Assembly: GCA_024275915.1 (NCBI GenBank)
Contig: JAJRYG010000050.1
Span: 1-40,633 of the forward strand
Origin: Gammaproteobacteria bacterium
Lineage (GTDB): Bacteria; Pseudomonadota; Gammaproteobacteria; UBA6429; Thiohalophilaceae
DNA: 40,633 nt
Reading direction: 5' to 3'
Shown here one piece after another: positions 30,056-40,633 of this stretch. The notes beneath the pieces were generated by a model that ran no database searches, was not told the DNA's origin, and saw only the letters and a program-made list of their open reading frames with translations. The position numbers were made by a program, and so were the translations under genes. Position 1 is the stretch's first letter. Each line of letters begins with the position of its first letter.

Positions 30056-30604
30056 TCATTTACCTTTGTTGGATGACTTCAAATTTGCGAGCACACTGAA
30101 CGGATTTTGCCGCTCTTCCGTCTGCGTCGCGGAATCTTCGGGTTCCGGGTGATTTTCCACCCAGTCCCTTGCAGGACATTCTGTCAGTTCATGGCGGGCG
30201 ATGGCCGGCAAAAACAGCAACAGTTCTTCCTCAATCATGTCGAGCAGCATAATCGGCACCGAATCCACGATGTAGGGCTCGTAGGGCCCCGGTATGCCTT
30301 CGGCGGCGACCGCATCACGAACGAAGGCCAGCGACAGGTCGATATCGACCGCCAGTGGCATGGGTTCGAGGCAACGCTGGCATTCCACCACCATGGTGCC
30401 GGTAACCTTTCCGCACAGAAAGGGGACATCCATGCTGTCAATGTTGAATTCCAGCTGCACATGAACCTGCCCGGCATCGTCACTCAGGGCCGCGCCCAGC
30501 CGCTTCATTTTCTGAAGTGGCAGTTCGCCCTCATAGATTCGTCCAGCCTGCGCCAGCCGAAATGGGTCAACCTGTACAGGCAAGCGTTCCGTCTGTCTCG
30601 ACAT
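30056..30604 (-). CDS. yceD: YceD family protein (DUF177), 23S rRNA accumulation protein
   Basis: The 182-residue protein belongs to the DUF177/YceD family, reported to be needed for normal 23S rRNA levels in E. coli. It has [17 protein letters not shown] at its start and the central Cys pair in [19 protein letters not shown]. An acidic [10 protein letters not shown] segment lies near the end. The start at ATG 30604 fits the family; a longer upstream frame has no similarity. The near-consensus promoter just upstream would make the mRNA almost leaderless. Confidence 0.93.
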
Positions 30605-30706: not shown

Positions 30707-30735
30707 TTGACAGTCACCGCCACATCACATACACA
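30707..30735 (+). promoter_or_regulatory. Possible pycA promoter
   Basis: TTGACA (30707-30712), 17 bp, TACACA (30730-30735), immediately before the long palindrome. The -35 is perfect and the -10 weak. If used, the palindrome would lie entirely in the pycA leader. Confidence 0.35.
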
Positions 30736-30795
30736 GTTATCCCAATCGTTGCATAAATTTTCGGCGCAGGATAGCGTAGCGCCTTCCATGCCAGC
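30736..30795 (+). repeat. 60-bp dispersed direct repeat, copy 1
   Basis: This matches 34912-34971 in the same orientation with 3 mismatches in 60 bp. It includes GTTGCATAAATTTTCGGCGC and GTAGCGCCTTCCATGCCAGC. It is the outer half of the left arm of the palindrome at 30741-30931. Confidence 0.85.
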
Positions 30796-30931
30796 ATTTT
30801 CAGTGCCGCGCTCGATTTTTCCAATTCTCACACAGGTTTGGCTATGCTGCGGTTGGAAAAATCTGCGCTCAACACTGAAAATACTGTCCTGAAAGCCCCT
30901 GCATCCAAAAATTTATGCAACTATTATGGGG
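30741..30931. repeat. About 190-bp imperfect palindrome (MITE-like) upstream of pycA
   Basis: Several blocks pair in nested order. GTTGCATAAATTTT (30748-30761) matches 30908-30921 exactly. ATTTTCAGTG (30796-30805) matches 30873-30882 exactly. TTTTTCCAA (30816-30824) matches 30853-30861, with GCGC and GAT extending it. Intervening CTTYCA and GCAGG-like stretches also correspond with gaps. Arms are about 80 nt around a 28-nt centre. This fills most of the 388-bp gap 30605-30992. Such terminal-repeat structures are typical of MITEs and large dispersed palindromes; no coding content is seen. Confidence 0.8.
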
Positions 30932-30992
30932 TATTTCCGGGTTATGCGTGGATAAAACCCCTACCTTGCGGACGACACTGGCGGATAGCGAA

Positions 30993-32411
30993 TTGATAAA
31001 AAAAATACTCATTGCCAACCGCGGTGAAATTGCCGTCCGGATTGTGCGCGCCTGTGCCGAGATGGGCATCACCTCGGTGGCCGTGTTTGCCGAGGCCGAC
31101 CGCTACAGCCTGCATGTCAAAAAGGCAGACGAGGCCTACAGCCTGGGGCCCGATACCGTTGCGGGTTACCTCAATGCCCACCGGCTGGTCAATCTGGCCG
31201 TTGCCACCGGCTGTGATGCCCTGCATCCGGGCTATGGCTTTTTGTCCGAAAACCCGGAACTGGCCGAAATCTGTGCCCGCCGAGGTATCCGTTTCATCGG
31301 CCCTGACGCCAGCATCATTCGCACCATGGGCGACAAGACCGCCGCCCGCGATACCATGCGCAAGGCCGGGATCCCCATTACGCCAGGCAGCCTCGGCAAC
31401 GTGACAAGCCTGGACGATGCCCTTGCCATTGCCAAGGATATTGGCTTTCCGATCATGCTCAAGGCCACCTCGGGCGGGGGCGGGCGTGGCATCCGTCGTT
31501 GTGAAAATGCCGAGGAACTGCGCCGCAATTACGATCGTGTGCTGTCCGAGGCAGAGAAATTCTTTGGCAATGCCGAGGTTTTCATCGAAAAATTCATTGC
31601 CAACCCACGCCATATCGAGGTGCAGATCCTCGCCGACAGCCATGGCAACGTGGTGCACCTGTTCGAGCGGGACTGCTCCATCCAGCGGCGCCACCAGAAA
31701 CTCATCGAAATTGCCCCCTCGCCCCAGCTGGACGACGATCAGCGCGCCCTGCTCGGTGATCTGGCCATTCGTGCCGCCAGGGCTACCGGCTATACCAACG
31801 CCGGTACCGTCGAATTTCTCATGGACAGCGGTGACAACTTCTACTTCATGGAAATGAACACCCGTCTGCAGGTGGAGCATCCCATCAGTGAGGAAATTAC
31901 CGGTATCGACATCGTTCAGGAGCAGATCCGCATCGCCGCCGGCCTCAAGCTGCGCTACAAGCAGGAAGACATCCAGCGACGTGGCTATGCCATCGAGTTT
32001 CGCATCAATGCCGAGGATCCGCGGAATGATTTCCTGCCCAGCTTCGGCCGCATTACCCGCTATTTCGCCCCCGGCGGACCCGGCGTGAGAACCGATGGCG
32101 CCATCTACACCGGCTACGATATCCCACCCTATTACGATTCCATGTGTGCCAAGCTCATCGTCTGGTCACTGACCTGGGACGGCCTCATCGATCGGGCCCT
32201 GCGAGCCCTGCGGGATATCGGTGTGTTCGGTGTCAAGACCACCATCCCCTATCACATCGAAATCCTCAAGAATGCCGAATTCCAGGCCGGTACCTTCAAT
32301 ACCGGGTTTGTCGAAAACCATCCGGAACTGGCCGATTACTCGGTCCATTGTTCCAACCGCCAGCTGGCGGCAGCCGTAGCTGCGGCCATCGCCGCAAACA
32401 TGGGGCTGTAG
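30993..32411 (+). CDS. pycA: Pyruvate carboxylase subunit A (biotin carboxylase)
   Basis: This is an ATP-grasp biotin carboxylase. It has KILIANRGEIAVRIVRAC at the start, HPGYGFLSENPELAE, the glycine-rich ATP loop SGGGGRGIR, ERDCSIQRRHQKLIE, and the catalytic FMEMNTRLQVEHP. Directly followed by a carboxyltransferase/biotin-carrier gene, it fits the two-subunit pyruvate carboxylase known from Pseudomonas (PA5436/PA5435 type) more than AccC of acetyl-CoA carboxylase. I chose TTG at 30993 (472 residues, GGCGGA 9 nt upstream). The ATG at 30915 lies inside the palindrome and adds 26 unlikely residues. Confidence 0.88.
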   Translation: MIKKILIANRGEIAVRIVRACAEMGITSVAVFAEADRYSLHVKKADEAYSLGPDTVAGYLNAHRLVNLAVATGCDALHPGYGFLSENPELAEICARRGIRFIGPDASIIRTMGDKTAARDTMRKAGIPITPGSLGNVTSLDDALAIAKDIGFPIMLKATSGGGGRGIRRCENAEELRRNYDRVLSEAEKFFGNAEVFIEKFIANPRHIEVQILADSHGNVVHLFERDCSIQRRHQKLIEIAPSPQLDDDQRALLGDLAIRAARATGYTNAGTVEFLMDSGDNFYFMEMNTRLQVEHPISEEITGIDIVQEQIRIAAGLKLRYKQEDIQRRGYAIEFRINAEDPRNDFLPSFGRITRYFAPGGPGVRTDGAIYTGYDIPPYYDSMCAKLIVWSLTWDGLIDRALRALRDIGVFGVKTTIPYHIEILKNAEFQAGTFNTGFVENHPELADYSVHCSNRQLAAAVAAAIAANMGL

Positions 32412-34911: not shown

Positions 34912-34971
34912 GTTAACCCAATCGTTGCAGAAATTTTCGGCGCAGGATGGCGTAGCGCCTTCCATGCCAGC
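34912..34971 (+). repeat. 60-bp dispersed direct repeat, copy 2
   Basis: Same orientation as 30736-30795 with 3 mismatches. It begins 7 bp after the maf stop. No matching right arm is seen here, so this is a truncated copy of the palindromic element. The gap 34906-35251 has no supported gene; it holds this copy, a degenerate 30-bp repeat pair and a weak CCAG/CTGG palindrome at 35130-35143. Confidence 0.85.
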
Positions 34972-38266: not shown

Positions 38267-40633
38267 ATGAAAAGAATGTTGTTCAATGCCACGCAACCGG
38301 AAGAGTTGCGTGTCGCCCTTGTTGATGGTCAGCGCATGTATGACCTCGACATTGAAACCACCCACCACGAAACCAAGAAATCCAATATCTACAAGGGCAA
38401 GATCACCCGCGTCGAGCCCAGTCTCGAAGCGGCCTTTGTCGATTACGGCGCCGAACGCCACGGCTTTTTGCCCATGAAGGAAATTTCCCGCCAGTACTTC
38501 AAGGCGGATGCGGATCTTTCCAAGAAGGTCAATATCAAGGATGTCATTCGGGAAGGCCAGGAAGTGGTCGTTCAGGTGGCCAAGGATGAACGTGGCAACA
38601 AGGGTGCTGCCCTGACCACCTTCATCAGCCTGGCCGGGCGCTATTCGGTGCTGATGCCCAACAATCCCCGTGCCGGTGGCGTGTCTCGTCGCATAGAGGG
38701 GGATGAACGCAATGAAGCCCGGGATGCCCTCAATGCGCTGGATATTCCCTCTGACATGGGCCTGATCATCCGTACCGCCGGCCTTGGCAAGAATGTCGAG
38801 GAATTGCAGTGGGATCTCAATTACCTGCTGAACCTGTGGAAATCCATCGACGAAGCCTCGAAGCAACGCCCTGCCCCGTTCCTGATCTACCAGGAAAGCA
38901 GCCTCATTACCCGCACCATTCGCGATTATTTCCGCAATGACATCAGCGAAATCATCATCGACGAGCCCTCGGTATACCAGCAGGCGGTCGAATTCATGCA
39001 GCAGGTGATGCCCAACAATCTCAACAAGATCAAGCTGTACGAGGATCCGGTTCCCCTGTTCACCCGCTACCAGATCGAATCACAGATCGAATCGGCCTTC
39101 CAGCGTGAAGTGCGCCTGCCCTCCGGGGGCGCCTTGGTCATCGATCATACCGAAGCGCTGATTTCCATCGACATCAACTCGGCTCGCGCAACCAAGGGCG
39201 GTGATATCGAGGAAACGGCCCTCAACACCAACCTGGAAGCGGCCGACGAAATCGCCCGCCAGCTGCGTCTGCGTGATCTGGGCGGTCTGGTGGTCATCGA
39301 CTTTATCGACATGACTCCGTCGAGAAACCAGCGTGAAGTCGAAAACCGCATGCGTGATGCACTGAAAATGGATCGCGCCCGGGTCCAGGTGGGTCGAATC
39401 TCCCGTTTTGGCCTGCTGGAAATGTCCCGGCAGCGCCTGCGGCCGTCACTGGGTGAGTCCAGCCAGCTGGTCTGTCCCCGTTGCAGCGGTCAGGGCACCA
39501 TTCGTGGTGTCGAATCCATTTCCCTGTCGATTCTTCGTGTCATCGAAGAAGAGGCCATGAAGGAGAAAACGGCCAAGATCATTGCCCAGGTGCCGGTTTC
39601 CGTGGCCGCTTTTCTGCTCAATGAAAAACGGGACATCCTCTTTGATATTGAAAAACGTCAGAAGGTGAACATTCTGCTGGTGCCCAATACCTCACTCGAA
39701 ACGCCCCACTACGATGTAGAGCGTATTCGTGAAGGTGAAGACACGGCACAGACCAGCAAGCACAGCTACGAAATGGCCACTCACAAACCCAATGAACTCG
39801 CCGAGAAACTGGCCAAAACCAGCGAGGCAAGAGCCAAAGCCGAGGTGCCTGCGGTCAAGTCCGTGGCACCAACGACCCCCCGCCCAAGTACAACCCCGCC
39901 CGAGTCTTCTGTCGCACAAACGGGTATTCTGGTCAAACTCTGGCGAGGCCTGTTTTCAAAAGGTGAGGAGCCCGAACCCACGGAGAAAAAATCACCTGCC
40001 CGCTCAGCCAGCACACAACGTCGCCGTGACAGCGGGACGGGCCAACAGCGTAGCCGGGGAAAAACCACCCGTCGGAGCAACACCGGCCAGCAACGTAGTC
40101 GTAGCGAGAGCCAGGGCCGCGCACGTCAACAACAAGGCCCCAAGCGCGAAGACAAAAAGCCGGCCGCCAGCCAGAGCAAACAGGCGGCCACAGAGGCTCC
40201 TGCTACTTCCGAGGTAGCTGATAACCAGAGTCAGGAGCAGCAACAAGCCCAGTCACGGCCACAAGGCAGCTCAGGCAGTCGCCGTGGCCGCCGTGGCGGG
40301 CGCCGCCGTCGCAGCGGTGGGGGCCGTAGTCAGACGGAAACAACCGCCACAGAAAATACCGCCCAGCAAACCGGGCAACCGGCATCTGCCGAGACGGTGG
40401 CAGACAGCAAGGCTCCGGTAAAAAGTCCCCAGCAGTCGGGTACACAACAGCAAGGCTCTTCAGCAGAAAAACCGGTTGATTCCACTTCTAGGAAGAATTC
40501 AGCTGCTGCCTCCGAGAAGGCTCCGGCTGCCGAGAAGGCTCCGGCTGCCGAGAAGGCTCCGGCTGCCGAGAAGGCTCCGGCTGCCGAGAAGGCTCCGGCT
40601 GCCGAGAAGGCCCCGGCTGCCGAGAAGGCTCCG
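38267..40633 (+). CDS. rne: Ribonuclease E (partial, 3' end outside the window)
   Basis: RNase E is the essential endonuclease of RNA decay and rRNA/tRNA processing and the degradosome scaffold. 789 codons are visible without a stop. The N-terminus [20 protein letters not shown] is canonical. An S1 domain (about 37-120), the catalytic D302 ([10 protein letters not shown]) and D345 (VVIDFIDMT), and the zinc-link C403/C406 ([10 protein letters not shown]) are intact. After about residue 500 the protein is low complexity. A short amphipathic segment with [14 protein letters not shown] may be the membrane anchor. Arg-rich RNA-binding patches with [15 protein letters not shown] follow, then tandem EKAPAA repeats. 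Confidence 0.96.
40514..40633 (+). repeat. 18-bp tandem repeat in the 3' part of rne
   Basis: The unit GAGAAGGCTCCGGCTGCC is repeated 6.7 times to the window edge, with a T-to-C change in the sixth unit. It encodes EKAPAA from residue 750. The array may continue beyond the window. Confidence 0.95.

Follow-up and report, generated by a model that had tools for sequence, protein, structure and literature searches.

A palindromic MITE inserted at the predicted transcription start of pycA in a gammaproteobacterium

The nested palindrome that lies between yceD and pycA in a gammaproteobacterial contig is a MITE insertion. The window, meaning the whole 40,633-nucleotide stretch of DNA analysed, carries one member of a dispersed family. 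The conclusion follows from the many copies of the sequence in the same genome, their terminal inverted repeats (TIRs), the 4-bp target-site duplications (TSDs) that flank them, and nine relatives in which the same site is empty. A sequence-only reading of the window had proposed a MITE or large dispersed palindrome at this position, and these observations bear it out.

The following course of events is, taken together, very probable. (i) A transposase would act in trans on the 21-bp terminal repeats and insert the element at TTAA-like 4-bp targets, which are then duplicated. (ii) The element would have been amplified in the lineage of the window's species. (iii) One copy inserted next to the native pycA promoter, 5 bp beyond its -10 box. 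(iv) The element would then form the beginning of the pycA mRNA, whose 5' leader would fold into a long imperfect stem. (v) The likeliest effect would be post-transcriptional, through cleavage by RNase III or altered stability of the 5' end. The family exemplifies a hairpin MITE that multiplied in a burst confined to one lineage. The pycA copy is also a natural case in which a mobile hairpin has probably taken the place of the entire beginning of a central metabolic gene's 5' leader.

The palindrome and its repeat family

The arms of the palindrome, first described as about 190 bp long, are real. Within 30741-30932, 72 base pairs are predicted, 68 of which span the midpoint. Exact blocks of 14 bp (30748-30761 with 30908-30921) and 10 bp (30796-30805 with 30873-30882) are found as originally noted, and the exact 9-bp match of that reading is contained in a 12-pair block (30814-30825 with 30852-30863). 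The boundaries fall at 30741 and approximately 30928 (table 1). Folding of the palindrome with short flanks yields -80 kcal/mol (z = -5.1), an energy matched by 0 of 200 dinucleotide shuffles. Set against other 192-mers of the GC-rich window, the minus strand reaches -95.0 versus -63.1 +/- 11.7, and the plus strand an unremarkable -71.4 versus -63.2 +/- 11.3. Because the raw energy of the plus strand is unexceptional in such a window, the decisive evidence is not energy but the recurrence of the sequence, with 40 copies in this genome. A covariance-model search of Rfam at the locus returns no credible family; its sole match is a chance microRNA (E 0.29).

Table 1. Coordinates of the element copies and neighbouring features in the window.
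Feature	Position	Strand	Remarks
yceD-like gene	30056..30604	-	divergent from pycA; synteny kept in relatives
pycA promoter, TTGACA-N17-TACACA	30707..30735	+	conserved in relatives, clearest in the nearest ones
Left TSD, TTAT	30737..30740	.	4-bp TSD established on 43 copies
MITE copy, nested palindrome	30741..30928	+	family-consensus orientation; right end ambiguous
Left TIR, CCCAATCGTTGCATAAATTTT	30741..30761	+	matches consensus exactly
Right TIR, ACTATTATGGGG	30908..30928	-	3 mismatches to consensus, end disturbed
Candidate right TSD copy, TTAT	30924..30927	.	sequence reading, ambiguous; implies loss of the element's last 5 bp
pycA, pyruvate carboxylase biotin carboxylase subunit, start TTG 30993	30993..32411	+	aligned to relatives' ATG
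Second copy, truncated, left arm only	34912..34971	+	95% identity over 60 bp

The genome searched for copies is the window's own, a 2.34-Mb assembly of 112 contigs that is 77% complete and broken at repeats. BLASTN identifies about 40 copies with 78-100% identity, on both strands and on many contigs, so the palindrome is not a single occurrence. Alignment of the copies yields a 189-bp consensus that starts with CCCAATCGTTGCATAAATTTT and ends with AAAATTTATGCAACGATTGGG, bounded by TIRs of about 21 bp (CCCAATCGTTGCATRAATTTT). The 21-bp end has 106 matches in this genome at three mismatches or fewer, compared with 0 for a reversed control pattern, and both TIRs of one copy (L102, on contig C105) fit the consensus pattern exactly. 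Internally deleted derivatives of 131, 100, 75, 69 and 55 bp also occur, together with truncated forms and near-minimal palindromes of about 30 bp. In three of these palindromes (L076:6052, L088:3055 and L089:3014; TTAACCCAATCATTGCATGAATCATTGGGTTAA) both element ends are fused with nothing between them. The element is non-coding: the ORFs that overlap the window copy are short, and frame-shifting indels distinguish the copies. An intergenic location is found for 39 of 40 copies tested, according to rough gene calls based on codon usage, and no orientation preference is apparent. The truncated second copy in the window sits directly after the maf stop codon, with a TTAA flank. Other dispersed repeats abut or replace element ends at the recurrent junctions GGCTCTTCAGAAGAATTTGTGGGTGGC... 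and GCCTCGTTAGAAAAATTTGTGGGTGGAGATGGTTGTG...; these are located in L014, L028, L033 and L071, and in L027, L037, L068, L078 and L096. They may represent nested insertions or a separate repeat family that favours a particular target.

The signature of transposition is seen in the flanks. Among 43 copies with two ends, the 4-bp flanks are identical in 12, where 3.4 are expected from shuffled right flanks (maximum 9 in 2000), and 115 flank bases agree against an expected 91.7 +/- 4.4. The same 43 copies display no excess identity at 3, 5 or 6 bp. The target consensus is T-T-A-A and AT-rich; TTTA, TTCA, TTAT and others also occur, and the TSD is imperfect in most copies. The window copy is rearranged at its right end, so that its own TSD is uncertain. 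Its right end would be 30923 if the right TSD is the TTAT at 30924-30927, and 30931 if the terminus is GGGG. All nine relatives that share the yceD–pycA region lack the element there, and the element is missing from a further 39 genomes of the family, among them one from the same genus.

Upkeep of the hairpin within and between families

Pairing within the window's genome was assessed on 28 full copies, by applying the consensus structure to the strand that folds better. This consensus fold was preferred to RNAalifold, whose consensus was poor, probably owing to alignment shifts. In this set 1871 of 2050 cells pair, compared with 1867.7 +/- 3.6 after shuffling. Pairing survives a change on both sides in 13 cases, where 9.8 are expected, and no covariation is detected among these 28 copies. 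The inserted copies in the window's genome drift freely and decay neutrally.

A search across the class turned up homologues of the element in genomes from further families (G197, G217 and G194). The G197 homologue is 187 bp long, is flanked by TTAA and TAAA, and is present in at least three copies within the 286 kb sampled; it aligns with the consensus over its full length at about 66-67% identity (128/193 aligned columns). G217 and G194 contain versions of 95-96 bp. Imposed on the G197 element, the consensus structure retains 61 of 71 pairs, compared with 39-44% for slid controls. Pairs changed on both sides still pair in 11 of 13 cases, and in 10 of 10 in the reverse direction, whereas one-sided changes preserve pairing in 4 of 12 (forward) and 2 of 10 (reverse). 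As the double changes are so consistently compensated, the palindrome is maintained between element families. Judged from these alignments, active elements preserve it along their lineage, while each inserted copy decays.

How this maintenance operates is open to two readings. Template switching during replication is known to correct quasi-palindromes, and arm-to-arm correction of this kind, rather than any use of folded RNA or DNA, might account for persistence of the palindrome between families. Doubly changed pairs occur all along the stem, transversion swaps among them, and own-genome copies carry no constraint on pairing, both of which are consistent with this explanation. It is a serious contender, though somewhat short of an even chance. 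Against it, the G-U pairs of the two families lean to the same strand (5 versus 1 and 5 versus 2; in total 10 versus 3), and the strand richer in G-U also folds better in both (-96 versus -73 and -86 versus -77). This lean is not significant and mildly favours selection on the folded strand. It is only tentatively suggested, as a rather doubtful proposition, that the elements form an undescribed, widely scattered MITE superfamily of this bacterial class (TIR CCCNATCGTTGCATRAA, TTAA-like 4-bp target, no known transposase), in which the full-length hairpin is selected as a folded single strand of RNA or DNA for spread and inserted copies decay freely. We know of no settled answer to the question of hairpin selection versus upkeep by replication errors for ERIC- or Correia-like elements. 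The compensated homologues in other families offer a test case for folded-strand selection against palindromy arising from replication errors.

The pycA promoter, start codon and leader

The TTGACA box of the pycA promoter occupies 30707-30712. A sigma-70 scan did not pick up this promoter because its -10 box is weak; despite this, conservation in relatives supports it. The element starts at 30741, 5 bp past the last base of the -10 box, and promoter spacing places the predicted transcription start at about 30742. An insertion just after a TTGACA-like promoter had been claimed from the sequence, which is right and can be refined: the insertion is at the predicted transcription start, not merely in the leader. 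Since the element begins at this predicted site, the pycA mRNA probably opens with the element, its 5' leader being a long imperfect stem. The start codon of pycA is TTG here and ATG in 9 of 9 aligned relatives. The ATG at 30915 lies in the right arm and had been doubted for that reason. It is not the pycA start, because the relatives' ATG aligns with TTG 30993; moreover, PycA homology starts about 24-26 codons downstream of 30915.

In a folding model of the leader from 30742, the hairpin folds independently of its surroundings. The region around TTG 30993 has a mean unpaired value of 0.57 with the element and 0.54 without it. As this region is about equally open in either case, an effect on mRNA processing or stability is to be expected over one on ribosome access, and a block of translation by the element would, on this model, be less likely. 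The transcript may fold in this way in vivo, may be a substrate of RNase III and may thereby alter the level of PycA.

Two alternatives bear on the consequence for pycA. The first, with nearly an even chance of being correct, is a neutral insertion whose leader hairpin leaves expression unchanged. The promoter is intact, the predicted accessibility of the ribosome site is unchanged and element copies decay neutrally, all of which favour this alternative, but for Correia and ERIC hairpins in transcripts, cleavage by RNase III or exposure of RNase E sites has been reported (PMC10969869, PMC2649163). The second, a conserved structured RNA specific to pycA (a cis-regulatory leader or a small RNA), is very improbable. 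The hairpin would indeed lie within the pycA leader, and compensatory changes preserve it at the family level. However, the empty yceD–pycA site in relatives, which have no hairpin upstream of pycA, refutes this reading; in addition no Rfam family corresponds to it, the 40 copies adjoin unrelated genes without orientation bias, and pairing among own-genome copies is at the chance level given above.

Known element classes and the search for a transposase

Bacterial MITEs share with this element its size, lack of genes, TIRs, TSD, intergenic dispersal and long stem (PMC2229807, PMC10969869). Here the element is small (less than about 400 bp) and non-coding, has TIRs and a TSD, is dispersed in intergenic copies and is missing from an empty site. 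It constitutes a new family among bacterial MITEs and is neither a Correia nor an ERIC element. Correia elements (CREE/NEMIS) are 100-157-bp non-coding inverted repeats with target duplication, mostly intergenic, that form hairpins in mRNA (PMC2649163). In Neisseria meningitidis, mtrCDE is separated from its native promoter by such an element, which is transcribed as part of the mRNA and cleaved there by RNase III (PMC2649163). This is the nearest mechanistic case; the pycA copy likewise stands between promoter and gene. Correia elements differ in their TA termini and 24-bp TIRs (PMC2229807), and are found only in Neisseria. The present element is palindromic throughout, with TIR CCCAATCGTTGCATRAATTTT, and has a 4-bp TTAA-like target in place of the TA termini and TA target of CREE (PMC2229807). 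ERIC/IRU sequences (127 bp) likewise are intergenic and non-autonomous, form a long stem-loop and occur as dispersed copies (PMC2759123, PMC2229807). They differ in having 7-bp TIRs and TA termini, and their hosts are Enterobacteriaceae and Vibrionaceae; the ERIC consensus and TA termini are not found in the element, which has a TTAA-like target and no Rfam or plasmid match. As far as tested, the sequence is unrelated to Correia or ERIC. RUP and other IS630-driven MITEs also have TIRs and duplicate their target, but this is a 2-bp TA rather than a 4-bp TTAA-like site (PMC2229807).

The less ordinary features of the family are its TTAA-like target and a full-length hairpin that is compensated across families. 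In the open-access literature, no paper was found with the element's TIR or with a comparable TTAA-target bacterial MITE family. Transposons of the piggyBac/IS1380 type use a TTAA-like 4-bp target beside ends that start with CCC. The element shares both traits; membership is not claimed, as its target is only TTAA-like and the genome contains no IS1380 transposase.

The 4-bp TTAA-like duplication and symmetric 21-bp ends point to a cut-and-paste (DDE-type) transposase that would act on the element in trans. They speak at the same time against mobilisation by a RAYT (Y1) transposase, as in REP/REPIN-type elements. Such elements are also short palindromic intergenic repeats with many copies, but no Y1_Tnp gene (PF01797) is detected at E <= 0.001 in the 77% complete genome, and this origin is highly unlikely. 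Searches of the same genome with PF01609, PF13701, PF13546 and PF01797 identify no autonomous element with the same TIRs, an absence that carries little weight because the assembly is incomplete and broken at repeats. PF13701 (IS1380-type) gives no match in the genome and none over the cut-off anywhere in the family, and PF13546 (IS701-type) none in the genome at the threshold used. PF01609 has no more than three matches, all partial; they comprise an IS1182-type gene that is divided between C1 and C92 as well as a fragment in C80. The IS1182-type remnants of C1 and C92 are rejected as mobiliser, since their ends are different (GGCTAAACCCGACAGACTCC). On contig C78 (L071) an inverted TIR pair stands 808 bp apart and encloses no recognisable transposase-like ORF.

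Searches beyond the genome gave few matches. The exact 21-mer TIR occurs three times across 85,000 genomes, each time with no partner repeat, and these matches are taken as chance. Matches to a shortened TIR in IMG/VR were rejected, the inverted partner being absent from the DNA examined, and plasmids contain no sequence similar to the element consensus. Two Patescibacteria contigs (L041 and L042) carry the exact 21-mer, apparently within a CDS on the other strand. The peptide EKFMQRLG, read opposite the 21-mer in both, recalls Y1 transposases, a likeness that we take to be probably coincidental.

Further repeats were observed along the way. The halves of the IS1182-type gene stand at two contig ends, L103 (C1) and L104 (C92), with a terminal sequence near GGCTAAACCCGACAGACTCCTAG. 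Another intergenic repeat motif, (T)TAACAGGCTGTTGAAAAA, recurs in L103, L104, L068 and L073. At 40484-40633 in the window, an 18-bp tandem repeat (GCTGCCGAGAAGGCTCCG) runs into the contig end and is a coding repeat of the Ala/Glu/Lys/Pro type.
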